This document shows positions 4,599 to 21,145 of a DNA stretch of 21,186 nt, in pieces. Within the stretch, counting starts at the first letter, position 1. Each line of letters opens with the position of its first letter. The notes beneath the pieces are model-generated. The model made no database searches, had not been told where the DNA came from, and saw only the letters and a program-made list of their open reading frames with translations. A program made the position numbers and the translations under genes. Source of the DNA: a virus; IMG/VR virus record IMGVR_UViG_3300030451_007093, positions 1 through 21,186 of that record. One strand, given 5' to 3'.

Positions 4599-4610
4599 AA
4601 TATTTACACT
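4599..4610 (-). promoter_or_regulatory. Shared 12-base motif AGTGTAAATATT, copy 2
   Basis: Read on the minus strand, the motif begins inside the TAG stop codon of the DNA polymerase gene and ends about 1 base before the first ATG of the Clp gene. It is identical to the copy at 1085-1096. The 11-base intergenic gap consists almost entirely of this motif. If it is a promoter, the transcript would start at or just inside the Clp start, possibly leaderless. An initiation-context or regulator-binding role is the alternative. Confidence 0.35.
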
Positions 4611-7179
4611 ATTTTATCTCAGATAGTTTCATGTAGATTTTATCTTTTAAAGAATGCATTTTTTCTATAAAAATTATATCCTCACCTAATCTACCATGAA
4701 TTACAACAATGTCTTCTTTTTTAGGTATTTTATTACCAGAATTTAGATAATTTGTTAATTTTTGTTCTCTATCAGAATCCATGAATAAACCGCTTATTAG
4801 CGCACTTTCATCTTGCAAATCTAATCTAACATACTTGTTACCATTTCTGCTAGTTCTTTTTACAGAATCTGTCACAACTCCTATAAATTTTAAATCTCTA
4901 AAAGCAGGAGACTCTTCATTAGATTCTATTTTGATTTCTTCAGCGGATACAAAGTCTTGAGATAAGTCAAAAATATCTTTTAATTTATGCGAGTAGCTGT
5001 ACCCAAGCAATTTGTTTTCAAAAAACCAATTAGCGTACCTAAGATACTTTTTATTCATTTCATAAATATCTTTGTATGGACCATACTTTTTCTTAAAAGT
5101 TTGAAACCTTTTTTCAGTCATCATTAATCTGCCGTCATCACCGACAGACTTGCTAGAATATTGATCATGGACTGCATTTAAAATATCAAAGTCATATTTT
5201 GTGCCAAGCTCAATAAAATTACGCTTTTCTCTATCAGTTAATATATTAAAAGTTTGAGCCTCAAGAACTAAACGGCATCTGTTTGAAGAGACAAAAGAAT
5301 CTAATAATCCCGCTTGAATCAAAGCTGATAAAATACCTATGTTCATTCCTGCCTGTTTAGCAGAAACAAAAATGTCATATTTATTAGAAAAACTTTCCTC
5401 TCTAAAATTTAATAATGACTGTAAAACTTTATCGGAAACTCCTTTAATAGAATTTAAACCATACCTTATATTTGAGCCTTCTATTTTAAAATCTATGTCC
5501 GATTTGTTTAAATCAGGTGGTAAAAGTTTGATGTCGAATGATGAAAGTTCTTGGGTGATTTTTGCTATCTCTTCATGAGAGTTTGGCTCATATTTTGCAT
5601 ATTTTAAAAGACTTAAAAAGAACTCTTTAGGATAATTAAACTTTAAATAAACTGTTATTGCAGCTAGATAGGCATAACTTATGGAATGCGACTTATTAAA
5701 AGAGTAATTAGCTGAATCTTCAGCTACTTTCCACAAAACTTCACCGATTTTAGCATCTAAATTATTGTCTTTTATTTTTTGTGTTATTTTAGCTTTCCAA
5801 GCTGGCATTTGCTCAGTTTTTTTCTTACCAATTATTCTTCTTAACTGCTCCGACTCATCTAAACTAAAGCCAACTTTAACAGCCATTTTCATGAGCTGCT
5901 CTTGGTAAAGAGGTATACCGCCTGTATAGCTTAAAATATCGTCAAAAAACTCATGAACAGATGAAAAATCGCCTGTTCTAGCGTATGCTGCATAATAGTC
6001 CAAAAACTCTAAAGCTCCAGGTCTTGCTATAGCCACAACAGCAGATAATTCCTCTAAACTTTTAGGGCATATTGTGCGACAGACTTTATAGTTTGTGTCG
6101 GCTTCAATTTGAAATAATCCTTGAGGAGATCGTAAACAAGATAAAGCTGCATATATTGATGGATCGTGAGGATCTATGTCTTTTACATTTATTTTAAGCT
6201 GTTTGCAGACATCATTTACAACAGATAAAGTTCTTAAACCTAAAATGTCAAACTTGACTGTTAAACTAGCGACATCATTCATATCATAAGCTGATATTAG
6301 TGAATCGTCATTAGTTAGCTGTAAGGGCATAATATCTTCTAAATCAAAAAATGATATTGATATGCCTGAAGGGTGTACCCCTGTGTTTTTATTTAAACCT
6401 TCTAATTTTTTTGCTATAGCAAAAGCTTTTGCATGATTATCTGCATGTTTTTTAAAAGTTTCACTCTCATTGCAAGCATTGTTTAAACTTGCAACTTTAC
6501 CAAAACTTTTAGGTATGCTTTCACTAATTATATTGACATCAGCTTCTGAAAGCTCTTCAACTATTTTACAACACTCTTTCATGCAAAGCTTACTGCTTAG
6601 AGTATTTAATGTTAAAATTTTAGAAGTCCTACCTTTAAATTTTTTTTCAATATATTCAATGACCTCAGATCTACGATCATAGGAAATATCATTATCGACA
6701 TCAGCTAATAAGCTGCCATCTAAATATATTTCACCATTATGTTCTATTTTTTTAGCTCTGCTTTTAGATACAAATCTCTCAAAAAATAAATCATGCTCTA
6801 TAGGATCTATGTCCGTTACGCCAATAACATATAGAACCAAAGATCCAGCGGCGCTGCCTCTACCTGCACCAACAGGGATGTCATTCTGTACACAAAAATT
6901 TATTATGTCCCAGTTTAAAAGAACATAGTCAATAAATCCAAGATCTTCAAAAATTTGTAATTCTTCTTTTAATCTATCATAGTAAACTTGAGCATTTTCT
7001 AATTCATGTATGCCTTTTTGTTTTAATCTATTGAAGCAAAGCTTTCTTAGGAACTGATAGTTACCTTCCAGGTCTTTGCAAGAAACCTCGTCATAATATT
7101 TTTTTTCTATCTTAATCTCTGGCAGTTTTACGCCAACTGGAAAAGGTGTTTTATATGGCTTGTAACTTGAAAGTTTCAT
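4609..7179 (-). CDS. dnaE-like: C-family DNA polymerase III alpha catalytic subunit lacking its PHP domain
   Basis: The 856-residue protein aligns by eye to bacterial DnaE from just after the PHP domain to the OB fold. Key landmarks are GAGRGSAAGS (104-113), the catalytic pair D162 and D164 in ADVDND (DnaE PDFDVDF), and the third aspartate D311 in VKFDILGLRTL. Also present are GVHPSGI (267-273), GGIPLYQEQLM (420-430), GKKKTEQM (451-458) and YSFNKSHS (492-499). A helix-hairpin-helix-like region (about 552-628) begins with LLPPDLNKSD, and an OB-fold region spans about 760-845. All three catalytic aspartates are kept, so it should polymerise DNA. No clear clamp-binding motif was seen. The first residues correspond to the PHP-palm junction of DnaE, and the PHP part is a separate gene upstream. 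Its ATG overlaps the exonuclease stop as ATGA. Confidence 0.95.
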   Translation of the reverse strand: MKLSSYKPYKTPFPVGVKLPEIKIEKKYYDEVSCKDLEGNYQFLRKLCFNRLKQKGIHELENAQVYYDRLKEELQIFEDLGFIDYVLLNWDIINFCVQNDIPVGAGRGSAAGSLVLYVIGVTDIDPIEHDLFFERFVSKSRAKKIEHNGEIYLDGSLLADVDNDISYDRRSEVIEYIEKKFKGRTSKILTLNTLSSKLCMKECCKIVEELSEADVNIISESIPKSFGKVASLNNACNESETFKKHADNHAKAFAIAKKLEGLNKNTGVHPSGISISFFDLEDIMPLQLTNDDSLISAYDMNDVASLTVKFDILGLRTLSVVNDVCKQLKINVKDIDPHDPSIYAALSCLRSPQGLFQIEADTNYKVCRTICPKSLEELSAVVAIARPGALEFLDYYAAYARTGDFSSVHEFFDDILSYTGGIPLYQEQLMKMAVKVGFSLDESEQLRRIIGKKKTEQMPAWKAKITQKIKDNNLDAKIGEVLWKVAEDSANYSFNKSHSISYAYLAAITVYLKFNYPKEFFLSLLKYAKYEPNSHEEIAKITQELSSFDIKLLPPDLNKSDIDFKIEGSNIRYGLNSIKGVSDKVLQSLLNFREESFSNKYDIFVSAKQAGMNIGILSALIQAGLLDSFVSSNRCRLVLEAQTFNILTDREKRNFIELGTKYDFDILNAVHDQYSSKSVGDDGRLMMTEKRFQTFKKKYGPYKDIYEMNKKYLRYANWFFENKLLGYSYSHKLKDIFDLSQDFVSAEEIKIESNEESPAFRDLKFIGVVTDSVKRTSRNGNKYVRLDLQDESALISGLFMDSDREQKLTNYLNSGNKIPKKEDIVVIHGRLGEDIIFIEKMHSLKDKIYMKLSEIK

Positions 7180-7808
7180 ATCTCTAAATCAAAAAGTTGT
7201 TTTTTAAATATTTTAAAATTCATCTCTATGTCATAGAGTGCGTCATGAAGTTTTTTAGGGTCGTGTTTTATGTTATAATGCTTTAACAAGAAACCCTGTG
7301 ATGTTTTTAAACCTCTCTCCTTATAATTTAGAAGCCTATATTGCCAATTAATAAATTTATCATTATTATATGGTATGTTTTTAGCTATGGCGGTTGCTAA
7401 AGCTTTAGTATCTATGATTCTTTTTATATAACTCTGATCTAATTTTCTACCCATCGCTCTACGCCAGACATCAATCATATATACATCAAATCCAAGTAAG
7501 TTTTGACCGACTATCAAAGTATCTTCATCATACAAATACTTAGAAAATTCATCCCATACTTGATTTGGCGCTAAGCACTTAGAATAGTATTTTTTTTCTG
7601 AAAAACCTGTAACTTTAGCTGCACCTTCAGATACATTTATATTAGGCCAATGTATAAATTTATCATGCCTCTCTTGAATTTCATCACCTTTTACCACAAG
7701 CCAAGCAATTTGCCAAGGTCTTGATGTAATTAAATTCAAACCCTCCGTTTCAGTATCAAAAACAATGTATTTTTGATTTTTATTAAATCTTAGTAATGTA
7801 TCATCCAT
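7176..7808 (-). CDS. dnaQ-like: DEDDh 3'-5' exonuclease, DnaQ/epsilon-like proofreading subunit
   Basis: The 210-residue protein has the three Exo motifs of the DnaQ family: Exo I FDTETEGL with D18 and E20, Exo II GQNLLGFD with D108, and Exo III LHDALYDIE with H188 and D193. All metal-binding and catalytic residues are present, so it should be an active 3'-5' exonuclease. It lies between the separate PHP gene and the polymerase gene, overlapping them by 8 and 4 bases. This supports a proofreading role in the phage replicase. The position recalls PolC, where the exonuclease is inserted within the PHP domain of one polypeptide. It covers the catalytic fold with little extra at the C-terminus, so an alpha-binding tail like that of E. 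coli epsilon is not evident. Confidence 0.93.
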   Translation of the reverse strand: MDDTLLRFNKNQKYIVFDTETEGLNLITSRPWQIAWLVVKGDEIQERHDKFIHWPNINVSEGAAKVTGFSEKKYYSKCLAPNQVWDEFSKYLYDEDTLIVGQNLLGFDVYMIDVWRRAMGRKLDQSYIKRIIDTKALATAIAKNIPYNNDKFINWQYRLLNYKERGLKTSQGFLLKHYNIKHDPKKLHDALYDIEMNFKIFKKQLFDLEI

Positions 7809-8544
7809 TTACGTACTCCTCAAAACTTTCAAAGCAAAACTCATTACTGCCAAAATGATTTAAATTTGGACAACTTAATGTGGAGGGTCTACCAAATTTC
7901 CTGCCACATATAATTTTATATGTCTGTAAAGCCTCTGCATCATCTTTTTTTTCATACAAAACGCTTTTTACCAACTCTGAATCATATTTATCCTTGCAAT
8001 ACTCAAAAACAGCTTGAGATATAATATCGTCAAATGGCAAGTTGTTTTTCTCTATCCAAAAAATAGGTTTAATTTTATTAAAATTAGGTATGCAATTTTT
8101 TAAGTACAATTGGTTTTGATATATAAAAGAATCGTAAAAAGGGATTACTAACTCCAAACTATCATTATCCCATATTGTGTTTAAATAATTAAAATCAACT
8201 TGACCTTTGTTACCTATATGAGCAAAAGAGTATATTTTATTTAACAACTTACAGCCTTGATCGTTTTTTGCTAAAATTATAACTTTATGATCTGAATTAT
8301 CATTTTCTTTTGATACGTCGTTGCAACAAGACACTCTCAACCCAAAAACTAGATGTATGTCATTTTGTTTTGTCAAGTTATGAGCTTTCACAAAACCAGT
8401 CATAGAGTCCTCAACTAAGACCAAAAACTTTTCATTAGTTTTTTTGTAAAGCTTTACTATGTTTTCTATAGTAAGAATACTTTTACCTATTGAATAATCT
8501 GACTTAAAAATTGGGGTCATGTAAAAAATATATGACCACATCAT
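7801..8544 (-). CDS. Stand-alone PHP domain of a DNA polymerase III alpha subunit
   Basis: The roughly 247-residue protein matches the N-terminal PHP region of DnaE in order: KSDYSIGKSIL (DnaE HSDYSMIDG), VEDSMTGFVKAH (TDFTNLCGLVKF), FGLRVSC (VGADFNV), ILAKNDQGCKLL (VLAANNTGYQNL), LELVIPFYDS, then EALQTYKII and NEFCFESFEEY near the end, matching the DnaE strand ending in SPEEM. Several metal-binding positions look substituted (Lys for His in HSD, Arg for the acidic residue in VGAD/E), so catalysis by this domain is doubtful, as for E. coli alpha. It probably associates with the polymerase or exonuclease. The frame opens at a TTG at 8547, with ATGs at 8544, 8541 and 8520; 8544 is chosen because it follows the upstream stop closely. 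No Shine-Dalgarno sequence is obvious. Confidence 0.8.
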   Translation of the reverse strand: MMWSYIFYMTPIFKSDYSIGKSILTIENIVKLYKKTNEKFLVLVEDSMTGFVKAHNLTKQNDIHLVFGLRVSCCNDVSKENDNSDHKVIILAKNDQGCKLLNKIYSFAHIGNKGQVDFNYLNTIWDNDSLELVIPFYDSFIYQNQLYLKNCIPNFNKIKPIFWIEKNNLPFDDIISQAVFEYCKDKYDSELVKSVLYEKKDDAEALQTYKIICGRKFGRPSTLSCPNLNHFGSNEFCFESFEEYVNG

Positions 8545-8550
8545 CAACTG

Positions 8551-13865: not shown

Positions 13866-14205
13866 TTAAAAAATCTCTAATTGTTTTTTTATTAGGTTTG
13901 ATTTTGGCATCCTTGCCAAACTTATCGCCGATATTATACCGTGGGTATTTTGAAAAGTCCACTTTAAAATTAAATGCTCTAAACTTTTCATCTAATTTAT
14001 CTGTCAGCTTTGGGCTAATCAAGTAAGTTAATGAATCAAACTTTTTTGGAAAAGAAACAATACTCATAAATTCTTGTGAGTACTTAGAACATAAATCGTT
14101 CAAAAGCTTCATCTCGCGAGAAAAAAAAGGTCTACGACCCTTTTCTGGGATGATTAAAAGCTTTTCTAAAATTTGTCTTTTATTAAGCTTTAGTTTCTTA
14201 GCCAC
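13858..14205 (-). CDS. Small basic protein of unknown function preceding recA-like gene
   Basis: The 115-residue product is not recognised. It is basic, beginning with a Lys-rich helix (AKKLKLNKRQILEKLL), then EKGRRPFFSREMKLLNDLC, and later a Tyr/Lys-rich stretch with FSKYPRYNIGDKFG and a C-terminal helix TIRDFLNE. There are no membrane segments. The start is GTG, sharing one base with the TAG stop of the dehydratase gene (TAGTG), and the 3' end overlaps the RecA-like gene by 8 bases. Charge and position suggest a nucleic-acid-binding accessory of recombination or replication, but this is inference. It is the first gene of the replication block in the direction of transcription. Confidence 0.65.
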   Translation of the reverse strand: MAKKLKLNKRQILEKLLIIPEKGRRPFFSREMKLLNDLCSKYSQEFMSIVSFPKKFDSLTYLISPKLTDKLDEKFRAFNFKVDFSKYPRYNIGDKFGKDAKIKPNKKTIRDFLNE

Positions 14206-15284
14206 TAATAAGAATTTACAATTTTTAAATCATTGTCAACCATTTTTCTTACTAAGTCTACAAAAGTGCTTTTAGGCTCCCAGCCAAGCTCATTTCTAGC
14301 TCTGGTTGAATCACCAAGCAGTAAGTCAACTTCTGCTGGTCTGTAAAACTTTGGATCAACCTCCATTAATAAATCATCACCATGAAAATACTTAGTGTTT
14401 TCCTCAAATCCCTCCCATCTACACATTGATCTGTGAAATCCAGCTATATGAAACGCCTCCTCAACAAATTCTTTTATGCTATGTGTTTCATCTGAAGATA
14501 AAACATAATCGTCAGGAGTTTTTTTAGAAGTATTAGTTGAATATTGTTCTTGATTTAACATTCTCCATACACCATCCATAAAATCTTCAGTATCGCTCCA
14601 ATCTCTTCTAGACTCTACATTTCCAAGTCTCAAAGGTTCAAAATTTTTTTTATTAACGTATTCATTACTAATACGTGCAACATTTTGAGTAATCTTTCTA
14701 GTGACAAATTCCGAACCTCTACGCACACCCTCATGATTAAAAAGCCAACCTTGAATTGCATATAACCCATAAGAGTCTCGATATACTTTTACTAAGTGCC
14801 TAGCGGAACATTTTGAAGCGCCATAAGGACTTCTTGGTCTAAGTGGGTGTTCTTCATTTTGTGGTTGTGTTATGACATCGCCAAATTCCTCAGACGATCC
14901 AGCATTGTAGTATCTACATTGTGGGCAGTGCCTTTTTATGGCTTCTAATTGATGTAAAACAGACATGCAGTTTGTCACCATGTGATTTACTGGCTGTGTC
15001 CAGCTATTTCCAACAAAAGAATTTGCTGCAAAATTTATAAAGTAATGAGGTTTATGCTCAGCTATTACTTTATCTATGTTTTGAGGGTCAGTGACATCTA
15101 AGTCAATAAGAAAAAATCTTGGATGATCAAGCAAATGTGAAATATTATCGTGATTTTTAACACTTAACCGTCTAGCGCCCCCAATAATTGTGTGTTTTGT
15201 ATTTTTGAGTAAGTAATCTGTCATGAGACTACCGTCTTGCCCAGTAACCCCAGTGATAATAATTACAATATTATCTTTTTTCAT
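14205..15284 (-). CDS. gmd: GDP-mannose 4,6-dehydratase family protein
   Basis: The 359-residue protein is a typical extended short-chain dehydrogenase of the GMD family, close to the family's usual length. It has the NADP-binding GVTGQDG (12-18), FAANSFVGNSW, the catalytic triad region AGSSEEFG (128-135) with S130/S131 and E132, YGASK with Y154 and K158, and the GMD signature NHEGVRRGSEFVTRKIT (183-199). It would convert GDP-D-mannose, or a related GDP-sugar, to the 4-keto-6-deoxy form, the first step to GDP-fucose, rhamnose or perosamine. It overlaps the epimerase gene by 14 bases, so the two are probably made together. Plain GDP-mannose as substrate is assumed from the family; GMD homologues acting on GDP-heptose also exist. 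Confidence 0.94.
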   Translation of the reverse strand: MKKDNIVIIITGVTGQDGSLMTDYLLKNTKHTIIGGARRLSVKNHDNISHLLDHPRFFLIDLDVTDPQNIDKVIAEHKPHYFINFAANSFVGNSWTQPVNHMVTNCMSVLHQLEAIKRHCPQCRYYNAGSSEEFGDVITQPQNEEHPLRPRSPYGASKCSARHLVKVYRDSYGLYAIQGWLFNHEGVRRGSEFVTRKITQNVARISNEYVNKKNFEPLRLGNVESRRDWSDTEDFMDGVWRMLNQEQYSTNTSKKTPDDYVLSSDETHSIKEFVEEAFHIAGFHRSMCRWEGFEENTKYFHGDDLLMEVDPKFYRPAEVDLLLGDSTRARNELGWEPKSTFVDLVRKMVDNDLKIVNSY

Positions 15285-16293
15285 TGACTTTTTCTTCTAT
15301 CCATTGATATGTTGAAGACACCCCCTTTAGTAATGGTTTTTGTGATTCCCAGCCAATTTTTTCTTTAAAAAGTGTGTTGTCAGAATTTCTACCCTTCACT
15401 CCTAATGGGCATTTATGACCATACTTTTGCTCAAATTCTTCACCAAAAAGATTTTTAATGGATATATTTTTGCCTGATGATTTAATAGCTAGCTCTGCTA
15501 ATTCATTAATAGTAACCATTTCCTCTGAGCCAATGTTAACTGGACCAGAAAAATGATCTTGAGCCATAAACTTTTCAATAGCTTTTAAGCACTCATCAAT
15601 GTATAAAAAAGAACGAGTTTGTTTTCCATCTCCCCATACCTCAATTTCTCCCCCGTCTTCACATTCTGCTACTTTACGACACATCGCAGCTGGAGCTTTT
15701 TCTTTGCCGCCTGTCCAAGTTCCTTGAGGGCCAAAAATATTATGAAATCTGCCTATTCTAATTTTAAGGTCATAATTTCTTTGAAATGCTAAATATAATC
15801 TCTCACTAAAAAGTTTTTCCCAGCCATATTCAGAATCTGGATTTGCAGGGTACGCTGAAGACTCTTCGCAATTAGGATTATCAGGATCAAGCTGATTATG
15901 CTCTGGATACATGCATGCTGAAGATGAATAAAATATTTTGCCAACTTTTTGTTTAACCGCCTCTTTAGCTAAATGTAAATTAATCAACGCAGAATTATGC
16001 ATGACGTTAGCGTCGTTCTCTCCTGTAAATATATACCCTGCCCCGCCCATATCTGCGGCTAATTGATAAACTTCATCAAAAGAATGATTTGGGCCAAGTT
16101 CTACAACTTCAGACATTATTTTTGCATCTGTCAAATCAGCCCGAATAAATTCATCACATATCTCCGACCAATCAAAGTACTCATGATGCTTAATATCCAC
16201 CGCTCTTACCCAGTATCCTGCATTTTTAAGTTTTCTAGCTAAATGCCCACCAATAAAGCCCCCACCTCCTAAAATTAATGCTGTTTTATCCAT
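15271..16293 (-). CDS. GDP-mannose 3,5-epimerase-like NAD-dependent epimerase
   Basis: The 340-residue protein resembles plant GDP-mannose 3,5-epimerase along most of its length. Landmarks are the NAD-binding GGGGFIGG (9-16), LAADMGGAGYI (78-88), SSACMYPE with the catalytic cysteine C127, YGWEK with Y156 and K160, GRFHNIFGPQGTW (181-193), GGKEKAPAA with the second acid/base lysine K199, and GRNSDN near the C-terminus. Active-site residues known from the plant enzyme are retained. Plant enzymes turn GDP-D-mannose into GDP-L-galactose or GDP-L-gulose; some bacterial homologues act on GDP-4-keto-6-deoxy sugars. Being next to the 4,6-dehydratase, this one could epimerise that product. It follows the only sizeable gap (16294-16368). 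A GDP-fucose synthase is the alternative but fits the cysteine and lysine motifs less well. Confidence 0.87.
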   Translation of the reverse strand: MDKTALILGGGGFIGGHLARKLKNAGYWVRAVDIKHHEYFDWSEICDEFIRADLTDAKIMSEVVELGPNHSFDEVYQLAADMGGAGYIFTGENDANVMHNSALINLHLAKEAVKQKVGKIFYSSSACMYPEHNQLDPDNPNCEESSAYPANPDSEYGWEKLFSERLYLAFQRNYDLKIRIGRFHNIFGPQGTWTGGKEKAPAAMCRKVAECEDGGEIEVWGDGKQTRSFLYIDECLKAIEKFMAQDHFSGPVNIGSEEMVTINELAELAIKSSGKNISIKNLFGEEFEQKYGHKCPLGVKGRNSDNTLFKEKIGWESQKPLLKGVSSTYQWIEEKVNEKR

Positions 16294-16368: not shown

Positions 16369-16662
16369 TTATATCTCCTCGATTCGTTTTGTCTTGTCGC
16401 AAATTAACAAATCATAGTCTGGTTTTTCATTACAAATTAACTGATGGTATTTGCATCCCCAATCTCTAAGTTGTTTGATTGTTAATGCTGAACAGTCTGT
16501 TTTTGATCGACACCCTCTAGCTGTCCAATAAATTATTTCATTACCCTCATCAAATAACTTGTTAATTTTTTTTATATTTTTATAACTAGGTTTTGCTAAC
16601 TCATATCTACGCTTACCTGTATAAAAACAAATTGTTTCATCTATATCGACATATATTTTCAT
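16369..16662 (-). CDS. Small HAD-superfamily phosphatase
   Basis: The 97-residue protein shows all four HAD motifs in compact form: VDIDET with the nucleophile D6 and D8, WTARG with T47, the lysine K80 in NEKPDYD, and acidic residues D84 and D89. It has no cap domain and is much shorter than typical HAD phosphatases, but similar small proteins occur in capsule and lipopolysaccharide loci. The substrate is probably a sugar phosphate or bisphosphate. By analogy with GmhB in heptose synthesis it could remove a phosphate between the kinase and nucleotidyltransferase steps of this cassette; that is inference. It shares one base (TAATG) with the sulfotransferase gene upstream. Confidence 0.8.
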   Translation of the reverse strand: MKIYVDIDETICFYTGKRRYELAKPSYKNIKKINKLFDEGNEIIYWTARGCRSKTDCSALTIKQLRDWGCKYHQLICNEKPDYDLLICDKTKRIEEI

Positions 16663-18029: not shown

Positions 18030-18449
18030 TTAATAAAGTGGATAGTCGGTGCATACGCCATAGCACTTGTAATTTTTTTCTTTCCAATCTTGATCTTTAT
18101 GAACAATAATAGATTTATCACAAACTTTTTTATTAGGAAAAGTCCAAATTAAATTATTAGAAATTAGAGTGTAATCGTCATTTTGATGCCAAAAAAAACA
18201 AACATAATTAGGAAGATAGGTTAAAGCTTCTAAATTTTTAGCATGAATCCACAGGTTCGGTTTGCATAAAAATTTCCAATCAATGTCGTAGATGGGTTGG
18301 TGATGTCCTGTATAAAAGTTTCCGTCTATTCTCCAAACATCTATTTCGCAATCAATGCCTTTGTTTAAAACTTTTAAGATTTGATCTGGATGGTTTTCGG
18401 TTTTGGGGTCTGGGCCAGAAATATTTGCTCTATGTGATATTAATCTCAT
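18030..18449 (-). CDS. Minimal glycerophosphodiester phosphodiesterase (GDPD)-like protein
   Basis: The 139-residue protein begins with the GDPD core: SHRANI with H6 and R7, ENHP with E18, CEIDVW with E35 and D37, and YTGHHQP with H49/H50. It ends with WIHAKNLEAL, FWHQNDDYTL and CYGVCTDYPLY, which read like the remaining strands of the barrel. It is about 100 residues shorter than usual GDPD enzymes yet keeps the metal and catalytic residues. Short GDPD-like proteins of this kind occur in capsule loci. There is no signal peptide, so it should act in the cytosol on a phosphodiester or nucleotide-sugar intermediate; the substrate is unknown. Its ATG shares one base with the stop of the nucleotidyltransferase-RpiB gene. 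Confidence 0.72.
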   Translation of the reverse strand: MRLISHRANISGPDPKTENHPDQILKVLNKGIDCEIDVWRIDGNFYTGHHQPIYDIDWKFLCKPNLWIHAKNLEALTYLPNYVCFFWHQNDDYTLISNNLIWTFPNKKVCDKSIIVHKDQDWKEKNYKCYGVCTDYPLY

Positions 18450-19600
18450 TATTGCTCACTAATTCTAGTCATATGCCTACCGCCATCAAAAGAAGATTTT
18501 ACAAGGGTGTCTACAATGTCCTTCAAAGAATCCATAGAAGTATATTTAGATGGTATAGAAAAAAAGTTAGCACAGTTATGTCTACGCGACATTTCTGCTG
18601 TGTATTTATCGAATATAAGCGCAGCCCTGACTCCCTCTTTATGGTTAGCTAAAATATTAATTCCTTGTCCTGTCCTACAAAAACCCAAAATAAAATCACA
18701 AGTCTTATTGTTGAGAGATTCAACTGCTTGATTAACATAAGCGTTATAATCAACGTCTTTTTCTACATGACACCCAAAGTCCACATGTTCAATACCCAAA
18801 GATTTTAAGACCTTTTTAACGTCTTCCTTTCTTTGGTATCCAGAGTGATCGCAACATAATCCTACAGGTTTTTCACCAAACCTATACGCCACCTTATCAA
18901 CAAAAAATTCTAATTCCTCTGGAGTGCCTAACACATGCATTTTTTCTACTTGTTTGATGCCAACACTGCGACCATCTCTAATTAGAAGGTTATACATCGG
19001 GCAGATATAGAATTCATCTTTAGTTCTAATATCTTTAGTTACAAGCTCTTCGGCATAATCTACAAAATATTTTCCTTTTTTAAAGTAATAAACACCAACC
19101 GCTGCATCTGAGCTTATAACTTGTTTCTCTGCTGTTTTAGTAGCAAACCCATCTGTGTCAATGGCTACATAACTATGAGCTGGGCTGTTGGCTTTAAATG
19201 TCAGAAGTAATCCATCTAAGTCTTTATCTATTGTATTAGGATCAAAAGTGTTTTGGAAATAAACGTCTGGTGTGTATATGATTAGAGGGTTATCATTATC
19301 TATATATTTTTTCGCCAATAAACAAGTTGATACGGAACCATCTGTGTCATGATCAACCACTACTATTTTAGTGTCTGGACCGAACTTCTGTTTTAAAATT
19401 TGATCAATAGAAAAATTGTTTATGTGCTCCAGTCTAACAGCAAAAATTAAATTACAATCTTTTGTGTCGATAGACTCCATAGCCCAATCAATAACCTGCT
19501 TGGTTTTAGCCATAATTAACGGTTTTGGCATGGTGTAACCCTGATCGCTAAATCTTTGAGCTTTACCAGCTATGGGCAATAATAAATTATATTTCTTCAT
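18449..19600 (-). CDS. Sugar nucleotidyltransferase fused to ribose-5-phosphate isomerase B (RpiB) domain
   Basis: The 383-residue protein has two domains. Residues 1 to about 235 are a nucleotidyltransferase: AGKAQRF (11-17) and MPKPLI with K26 form the NTP site, TPDVYF with D112 the metal site, and MHVLGTPEEL (221-230) the closing motif. Residues about 246-383 are a full RpiB domain: CCDHSGY with D251 and H252, FCRTGQGINILANH with the catalytic-type C308, SRRHN with H341, and FDGGRHMTRI near the end. Both domains keep their active-site residues in one unbroken frame. RpiB interconverts aldose and ketose phosphates, and the first domain would activate a sugar phosphate with an NTP. It overlaps genes on both sides (ATGA and TAATG). 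The base used (CTP, GTP or other) cannot be read. Confidence 0.88.
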   Translation of the reverse strand: MKKYNLLLPIAGKAQRFSDQGYTMPKPLIMAKTKQVIDWAMESIDTKDCNLIFAVRLEHINNFSIDQILKQKFGPDTKIVVVDHDTDGSVSTCLLAKKYIDNDNPLIIYTPDVYFQNTFDPNTIDKDLDGLLLTFKANSPAHSYVAIDTDGFATKTAEKQVISSDAAVGVYYFKKGKYFVDYAEELVTKDIRTKDEFYICPMYNLLIRDGRSVGIKQVEKMHVLGTPEELEFFVDKVAYRFGEKPVGLCCDHSGYQRKEDVKKVLKSLGIEHVDFGCHVEKDVDYNAYVNQAVESLNNKTCDFILGFCRTGQGINILANHKEGVRAALIFDKYTAEMSRRHNCANFFSIPSKYTSMDSLKDIVDTLVKSSFDGGRHMTRISEQ

Positions 19601-20445
19601 TTTATTTTTCTCAGTGTCCCTTGATAATTTTTTTCAAAAACCCCACGCTCTTCTCCTAGTTCTACTAATCTCATGAATTCAAGACTACTTCTTTGTGTTA
19701 AAATATTATTGTTTTTTAACAAAAGACCCAGTAAGCACTCTGGAGGTGGAGGTTGGTATACCTTATATTTTCCCCAGCTTTGAGGTTCATTATATTGTTT
19801 TTTAATATTTAAAATATTTGGATATAAACTACAATAAGTGTCCATAACACTAGAGCTTCCAAAAGCAAAATTATCAGCGACAAAAGGCATAACATTTGGG
19901 GCTGGCTCAAACCAAAAACTATTTCTTATGGTTCTTTCTCCCACATCCAATAAACTAGTGCTCACAAAAATAAGTTTATTATTTTCTAAACATTGATTTA
20001 TTTCTTTTGAGGGTATTTCCTGCTCATAAAGAGAGTCCATTCTGCTTCTTATTACAATATCATACTTAAACCCTAATTGTTTTTCTCTTGTTTTTTTTAT
20101 CTCGTTGCTTCTATACCAGCTATAGGAAGCTGGCGTAATTGTGCTTCCTTCTATATCTGCTTTTAAGTAATTCCATTCTTGATCTTCATAAGCTTCAATA
20201 GAATAGTCGAAATAATTTTTTTCTTTATTTAAGTGATTTGTAAAAAAAGATATTTTTTCGTCTTGTGTTTTCCAGTTATCAGAAACAGCTTTGAATCTAT
20301 TTGCTGCTCTGCCTCCTCCTGATTCTATATCCCAAGTATGAACAAACAGGTCAGCATCATAAGGCTCGACAAGATACTTAATTATATCTTTAACAGTAAA
20401 TTTAACACCCCTTGTTAATCCAGATAAACATACAGCGACCTTCAT
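19597..20445 (-). CDS. Putative glycosyltransferase
   Basis: The 282-residue protein starts with VAVCLSGLTRG, followed by YDADLFVHTWD (29-39), YDIVIRSRMDSLY (128-140) and DNFAFGSSSVMDTYCSLYP (191-209). These are the ordered motifs of a family of putative glycosyltransferases common in capsule, lipopolysaccharide and phage glycan loci; the RSRMD aspartate is the likely DxD-type metal ligand. There is no membrane segment or signal. It starts two bases after the kinase stop codon (TAATATG) and overlaps the nucleotidyltransferase-RpiB gene as ATGA. Donor and acceptor are unknown; the sugar nucleotide made by the neighbours is the obvious candidate donor. Confidence 0.65.
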   Translation of the reverse strand: MKVAVCLSGLTRGVKFTVKDIIKYLVEPYDADLFVHTWDIESGGGRAANRFKAVSDNWKTQDEKISFFTNHLNKEKNYFDYSIEAYEDQEWNYLKADIEGSTITPASYSWYRSNEIKKTREKQLGFKYDIVIRSRMDSLYEQEIPSKEINQCLENNKLIFVSTSLLDVGERTIRNSFWFEPAPNVMPFVADNFAFGSSSVMDTYCSLYPNILNIKKQYNEPQSWGKYKVYQPPPPECLLGLLLKNNNILTQRSSLEFMRLVELGEERGVFEKNYQGTLRKIK

Positions 20446-20446
20446 A

Positions 20447-21145
20447 TTATTTTTTTGATTTTAAAAATGATGTAGTTTTGTGCATAGCTAAGTTGGATGC
20501 TTTTATTATATTAGAATATTGTAAATCTTCAATTAAAAAGGCGGCATAAGAATCTCCTGCGCCGTTTACTTCTAAATTGTTTAGTTTTTTTATTTTAGAC
20601 GAATAGATTTTCTTGCTTTTTTCTAATATTTCAATACCTTTATCATCGTGCAATATTGTAAAATTCTTTAAATGTATATTGTTGTACAAATTTTTTCTTT
20701 CTCTAGAATCAAATATAATTTCTGCTTTTTCCATTACATCTATAAAATTTTCTCTAGGTGAGTTAGTGCAAAAATCTAAACTAATTGGTATATTTATATT
20801 AAATATTTTTCTGTAATCTTCTATATCATCTATATAAGCAACGTGGAGCCAATCACAATTTTTATTAATTGATTCAACGCTGGATAAACTTAAATAAGAT
20901 TTTTCTTCTAAAAATGTAAAAGAAGTTCTTTTGCTGCTACCAACATCGTTAATTATAAAAGCTTTTCGTTTACCTGTATCATAAATTTTAAAATTTACAT
21001 TTTTTACAGGAACTCGTAAAAAATTATAGATACCACCTAATCTATTTTTAAAACAGTCACAAATATTTGTTTCACCCTCAAGTAAAGACTTGCTCGTTAA
21101 TAAGTGATCCTCATATTTTTTCCCCAGTAAACCAACTGTTAGCAT
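20447..21145 (-). CDS. PfkB (ribokinase-family) carbohydrate kinase, short form
   Basis: The 232-residue protein has the PfkB signature NGAGDSYAAFLI (194-205) with the catalytic D198 and anion-hole glycines, and an N-terminal RLGGIYNFLR (35-44) in the place of PfkB motif 1. A substrate-facing ISLDFCTNSPRE segment (121-132) and FTILHDDKG (162-170) fit the central sheet. It is about 60-70 residues shorter than typical ribokinases, mostly in the N-terminal lid region, but the ATP and catalytic site is intact. It would phosphorylate a sugar or sugar phosphate. Position two genes before a nucleotidyltransferase-RpiB fusion suggests it works in the same activation pathway. The ATG at 21145 is preceded by AAACC with no clear Shine-Dalgarno sequence. 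Confidence 0.75.
   Translation of the reverse strand: MLTVGLLGKKYEDHLLTSKSLLEGETNICDCFKNRLGGIYNFLRVPVKNVNFKIYDTGKRKAFIINDVGSSKRTSFTFLEEKSYLSLSSVESINKNCDWLHVAYIDDIEDYRKIFNINIPISLDFCTNSPRENFIDVMEKAEIIFDSRERKNLYNNIHLKNFTILHDDKGIEILEKSKKIYSSKIKKLNNLEVNGAGDSYAAFLIEDLQYSNIIKASNLAMHKTTSFLKSKK

Follow-up and report, generated by a model that had tools for sequence, protein, structure and literature searches.

The window, by which the whole stretch of 21,186 nucleotides of viral DNA analysed here is meant, contains on its minus strand an ORF that encodes a nucleotidyltransferase (NT) domain and an RpiB/LacA/LacB-type isomerase domain in one polypeptide. This NT::RpiB fusion and its neighbouring genes are listed in Table 1. 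A longer contig, L001, shows no difference from the window in the shared genes that were compared.

Table 1. Positions of the NT::RpiB fusion, its domains and neighbouring genes in the window
Feature	Position	Strand	Size or residues	Basis or remark
Short PfkB-fold sugar kinase, proposed anomeric kinase	20447..21145	minus	232 aa	AlphaFold/Foldseek, profile, GAGD motif, co-occurrence
Protein with DUF7796 at its cut-off	19597..20445	minus	282 aa	Between kinase and fusion
NT::RpiB fusion ORF	18449-19600	minus	383 aa	ATG start, uninterrupted
NT domain of fusion, RmlA/GlmU-like by homology	18890..19600	minus	residues 1-237	Pfam/NCBIfam, 4evw match, invariant motifs
RpiB/LacA/LacB-type isomerase domain of fusion	18458..18865	minus	residues 246-381	PF02502, TIGR00689, PDB RpiB matches, conservation, comparison with stand-alone RpiBs
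Short GDPD/PI-PLC-like protein	18030..18449	minus	139 aa	Motifs only: HR, E-x-D, H and TDY kept
HAD-like protein	16369..16662	minus	97 aa	Weak match to EcbF/BcbF capsule phosphatase (0.0048), below cut-off
GDP-mannose 4,6-dehydratase-like and NAD-dependent epimerase/dehydratase genes	14205..16293	minus		Same glycan island, outside core cassette

The GDPD-like protein matches PHROG_34507, a family of unknown function, and has no Pfam match. Elsewhere in the window, translations read by eye reveal an ORF like a C-family DNA polymerase (4609-7179), a DnaQ-like exonuclease ORF (7176-7808) and an ORF that looks like a separated PHP part (7801-8547). The protein encoded at 27-1076 contains many Lys/Met/Gly/His-rich near-repeats (AGMHEDKKKM-like) and matches neither an NCBIfam nor a PHROG model.

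The N-terminal half of the fusion is most similar to RmlA/GlmU-like enzymes among the NCBIfam models (best 3e-9). Pfam PF00483 (NTP_transferase) matches residues 11-184 of the window copy at 4.8e-4 with 20.2 bits, just below the cut-off of 21.2, and gives 40-56 bits for related unfused and HAD-fused NTs. The nearest solved relative by sequence is 4evw (1.6e-13 by phmmer and 1.5e-26 by profile), which is named nucleoside-diphosphate-sugar pyrophosphorylase; its record name gives no substrate and, unlike the fusion, it is a single-domain protein. The G..RF...PK motif, the metal-binding Asp and the EK sugar-phosphate motif are all present in the fused NTs, and G12, R16, P25-K26, D112, E158-K159 and E196 are invariant across 49 non-redundant fused copies, a set obtained by dropping copies at least 95% identical to another. 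Several plasmid-borne relatives of the NT sit under features named 'glycosyltransferase family 2 protein'.

The C-terminal half is assigned to the RpiB/LacA/LacB family by PF02502 (LacAB_rpiB), which matches residues 246-381 at 1.8e-35 with 122.4 bits (cut-off 24.7), by TIGR00689 (112.4 bits, above the cut-off of 88.3) and by RpiB structures in the PDB (6e-30). The catalytic-type residues that this half has in common with the RpiB, LacA and LacB isomerases (D251-H252, C308, T/S310, H341, R375 and R379) recur in every one of the 49 non-redundant copies. The domain differs from these isomerases in being fused to an NT, in its active-site loop and in its score against the curated RpiB equivalog TIGR01120, which is 101 bits and misses the cut-off of 138.65. 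The loop reads C-R-[TS]-G-Q-G-x-N in 49/49 fused copies, whereas C-G-[TS]-G is the form in the stand-alone RpiBs used for comparison, so that Gly is replaced by Arg beside the catalytic Cys308, with Gln and Asn at two more loop positions. Because the loop signature is the family's own and the equivalog cut-off is missed, specificity for a pentose (ribose-5-phosphate) is not to be assumed.

An earlier note on this DNA had claimed that both domains share one polypeptide with their active-site motifs intact, and the profile matches and the residues invariant in 49 copies bear this out. A scan of viral contigs yields full-length relatives of the window protein at 49-100% identity, together with relatives of the NT half only. 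A profile scan confirms 120 relatives, and the 80 that were kept each match nearly end to end. In the loci fetched, both domains lie in one frame in 90 ORFs, with duplicate records counted, and the 49 non-redundant copies are what is left of these. Two isolated Synechococcus phages have the fusion as well: Bellamy, represented by two records, and SynMITS9220M01, by one. It is annotated as 'phosphatase' in MF351863.1 (gene 206) and in MT408532.1 (SynMITS9220M01_192). Chance or an assembly artefact is ruled out as the origin of the fusion by the 90 fused ORFs, the independent contigs and the isolated phages. The earlier note had named relatives with two separate genes as the finding that would speak against a fusion. 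No such relatives turn up: when the RpiB signature alone is used as the query, 77 of 79 loci are fused, many of these being contigs already found. One of the two exceptions (L220) is an ORF that begins at the end of its locus. The other (L171) is a 187-aa ORF in which the tail of an NT domain still precedes the RpiB domain, which marks it as a truncated or chimeric derivative of the fusion. Purifying selection acts on both halves: comparison with close relatives gives dN/dS values, where computable, of 0.03-0.05 for the NT and 0.03-0.12 for the RpiB half. In a quick tree, in which long branches outside this group leave the placement of outside rows uncertain, the NT domains of the fusions all fall together with an SH-aLRT support of 100%, and this grouping is consistent with a single fusion event. 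The AlphaFold model of the fusion, built with 11 sequences, is poor (pLDDT 60).

The fused protein is not found in about 940 bacterial and archaeal genomes of four phyla other than Pseudomonadota, and a search of 72,556 plasmids at 80% coverage likewise yields no copy. The genomes were sampled by phylum around L047 (292 genomes), L048 (296), L049 (199) and L044 (151), and the matches listed for these samples are either NT-only or RpiB-only, or do not reach 1e-40. For the short kinase, a search at 1e-12 of 244 genomes of one phylum, run without a positive control, yields no cellular homologue. Two bacterial loci from a single phylum (L162 6182-9972 and L163 4698-8991) encode two NTs, a HAD and a cupin at a short distance from each other, in L163 with a GDPD-like protein. 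The related NT occurs in these two loci without the short kinase or RpiB, which suggests an older association of NT, GDPD and cupin, to which phages may have added the kinase and the isomerase.

The genes that surround the fusion are conserved as well. Within eight genes of the fusion, 48 of the 49 non-redundant loci have the short kinase (46 of them at position -1), 45 a KdsC-like HAD (41 at -2), 45 the GDPD-like gene and 21 a cupin gene; 10 of the loci have split transketolase genes just downstream. The kinase gene directly adjoins the fusion in most relatives, and in the window virus the gene for the 282-aa protein is inserted between the two. Among the loci counted, 50 have a 4-nt overlap of the fusion with the upstream gene, which is consistent with one operon. 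The islands that contain this cassette hold glycosyltransferases, a sulfotransferase, dehydratases and epimerases. Of the KDO pathway (KdsD, KdsA, KdsC and KdsB), neither a KdsA-type synthase nor a KdsB-type CMP transferase is recognised among the recurring neighbour clusters.

The kinase is about 230 aa long, compared with about 300 for typical PfkB enzymes. The window kinase alone has no Pfam match, and Pfam PfkB picks up only 7 of 14 members at 0.01. An AlphaFold model from an alignment of 12 sequences has a pLDDT of 94 and a pTM of 0.90, and Foldseek matches this model best to ketohexokinase (4.5e-12), and also to ribokinase and HldA. The kinase profile matches a sugar kinase in the PDB at 1.5e-6, and the GAGD motif is kept in 46 of 48 kinase relatives. 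A search of 50,697 phage records with the Bellamy kinase yields it in three of them only, the same three that have the full-length fusion. The HAD of the cassette, about 175 aa long, matches the KdsC/YrbI model at 1e-18 to 2e-25, under the curated cut-off, and the GmhB model at 0.003-0.03, and is thus closer to KdsC/YrbI. A KdsC-like HAD is not found near the fusion of the window, nor among the upstream genes available in L001. The 97-aa HAD-like protein is a candidate stand-in for it.

These results suggest that the fusion probably supplies the first and the last activity of a compact pathway, carried by the virus, that leads from a ketose phosphate to a nucleotide sugar, an NDP-aldose. An aldose that bears only a terminal phosphate is no substrate for a sugar-1-phosphate NT. 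A kinase and a phosphatase are therefore needed, because the product of the isomerase cannot feed such an NT directly. The analysis shows the fusion and its conservation, the intact catalytic motifs, the fold of the kinase and the recurring set of genes; the individual reactions, the sugar and the nucleotide are inferred, as is, by analogy, the order of the steps. The RpiB-type domain would convert a ketose with a terminal phosphate to the aldose phosphate, the short kinase would phosphorylate the anomeric hydroxyl to give an aldose 1,n-bisphosphate, the KdsC-like HAD phosphatase would remove the terminal phosphate, and the NT domain would join the resulting aldose 1-phosphate with an NTP to give the NDP-aldose, a possible donor for the glycosyltransferases encoded in this island. 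In the window virus, the phosphatase step may be carried out by the product of a gene outside the contig, by the 97-aa HAD or by a host enzyme. The main reason to prefer this four-step cascade is the conserved presence of the kinase and the phosphatase. Several points count against it. The kinase is short for a PfkB enzyme and half of the members compared escape the Pfam model, the HAD is missing near the window copy, gene adjacency alone is no proof of one pathway, and the GDPD-like gene (45/49) and the cupin gene (21/49) have no role in the scheme. The earlier note proposed that the sugar phosphate, once isomerised, goes on to become an activated sugar. This idea gains from the conserved kinase and phosphatase, which provide the two steps that would be missing with an isomerase and an NT only.

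The ADP-/GDP-heptose pathway (GmhA, HldE or HddA/HddC, and GmhB) consists of the four reaction types proposed for the cassette, in the same order: a ketose-to-aldose phosphate isomerase, an anomeric kinase, a HAD phosphatase and an NT. In the heptose route, S7P is acted on by GmhA, followed by the HldE kinase at the anomeric carbon, GmhB and the HldE NT (PMC10948575). This pathway also contains an enzyme fusion, HldE, in which a kinase is joined to an NT (PMC10948575), that is, the second step to the last, whereas the fusion of the cassette would join the first step to the last. The modelled fold of the cassette kinase is of the PfkB type, like that of HldE. In contrast, the isomerase is RpiB-type rather than of the SIS fold of GmhA, the phosphatase is KdsC-like (and absent near the window copy) rather than GmhB-like, and the NT is of the RmlA/GlmU type, unlike the NT of the heptose pathway.

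This similarity raises the question of whether the cassette simply makes ADP- or GDP-heptose by the ordinary route, with the RpiB-type domain performing the GmhA reaction from sedoheptulose-7-phosphate to heptose-7-phosphate. Transketolase can supply sedoheptulose-7-phosphate, and the split transketolase genes downstream in 10/49 loci would fit this reading, as would the four chemical steps and the presence of HldA among the fold matches of the kinase. RpiB-family enzymes are known to act on C4-C6 sugar phosphates, with which the NCBIfam names agree, and this range argues against a heptose phosphate as the substrate. Besides, SynMITS9220M01 has a separate set, consisting of a SIS protein annotated as phosphoheptose isomerase, a GHMP kinase annotated as heptose kinase and a HAD-cytidylyltransferase, so that a second route to the same product would be redundant. 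An ordinary heptose pathway is thus rather unlikely. Only slightly less doubtful is the possibility that the NT acts on the terminal phosphate like a cytidylyltransferase, producing a CDP-polyol or CDP-ketose, while RpiB sets the balance between aldose and ketose and the kinase and the HAD serve another sugar of the island. The weak similarity of some relatives to IspD, a cytidylyltransferase, points in this direction, as do bacterial loci where this NT subfamily recurs together with a cupin and a GDPD-like gene but with neither kinase nor RpiB. The kinase (48/49) and the HAD (45/49), mostly directly upstream of the fusion, are hard to square with service in another pathway, and no reductase recurs among the neighbour clusters listed.

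Two further explanations concern the isomerase domain alone. It is improbable that this domain serves the pentose phosphate pathway, supplying ribose-5-phosphate for phage nucleotide synthesis, with its fusion to the NT being incidental. In SynMITS9220M01, genes for glucose-6-phosphate and 6-phosphogluconate dehydrogenases do lie near the cassette, which speaks for such a role, but the RpiB half almost never occurs without the NT half, it is located in glycan islands, and in every one of the 49 copies the loop at its active site is unlike that of stand-alone RpiBs. The substitution of Arg for Gly beside the catalytic Cys and two further substitutions in the same loop could also mean that the domain is a non-catalytic module for regulation or oligomerisation. 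This explanation is the hardest to credit, given that D251, H252, C308, T/S310, H341, R375 and R379 are kept in 49/49 copies.

If the four-step cascade is accepted, its substrate may be a pentulose phosphate such as ribulose-5-phosphate, a choice that we regard as tentative, with hexulose or longer ketose phosphates as the next guesses. Glucose-6-phosphate and 6-phosphogluconate dehydrogenases lead to ribulose-5-phosphate, and their genes in SynMITS9220M01, located within 10 kb upstream of the cassette, provide a hint in favour of this compound. The split transketolase genes hint that longer ketoses are allowed. The separate heptose-annotated set of SynMITS9220M01 speaks mildly against an ordinary heptose as the product. 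The missed RpiB equivalog cut-off, the family-specific loop and this separate set leave the suggestion of the earlier note, a product derived from a pentose or a heptose, as no more than a possibility. It is conceivable, if somewhat doubtful, that the pathway has no known counterpart in cells and that, by means of an isomerase fused to the NT of the last step, it turns a metabolic ketose phosphate, such as ribulose-5-phosphate, into an NDP-aldose that is new as a glycan precursor, for example an NDP-pentose.

The cassette probably encodes a variant pathway of the isomerase-kinase-phosphatase-NT kind. No description of an NT::RpiB fusion is found in the open-access literature searched. Many aquatic bacterial viruses carry the fusion, nearly always next to the sugar kinase and in most cases with the phosphatase, and thus seem equipped with the greater part, or the whole, of a small set of enzymes that makes an activated sugar. 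If this is true, a family of widespread aquatic phages leads material from central metabolism to an activated sugar in a few steps of its own, the first and the last of which are catalysed by a single protein. Such phages would offer a testable case of a virus that provides an uncommon or even novel sugar unit for modifying glycans, and the domain pair would allow searches for the pathway in metagenomes.

Related NTs are joined to other partners in phages. In HAD::NT fusions, such as that of Synechococcus phage B23, an NT of a related subfamily is preceded by a different sugar-phosphate enzyme, a beta-phosphoglucomutase-like HAD at the N-terminus. These fusions likewise lie in glycan islands, and group apart from the RpiB fusions in the tree. 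They are present in L013-L020, L041 (9347-10720) and L008 (15073-16476), with a domain scan made on L008 and L041, and L008 carries a HAD::NT fusion and an RpiB fusion together. The partner of a related NT in Synechococcus phage S-SKS1 is a domain of 3,4-dihydroxy-2-butanone-4-phosphate synthase (RibB) (L043 7998-9425); RibB uses ribulose-5-phosphate. Two NTs in tandem make up proteins of at least about 520 aa in phage and bacterial loci (L024, L028-L037, L042 and L046-L050).
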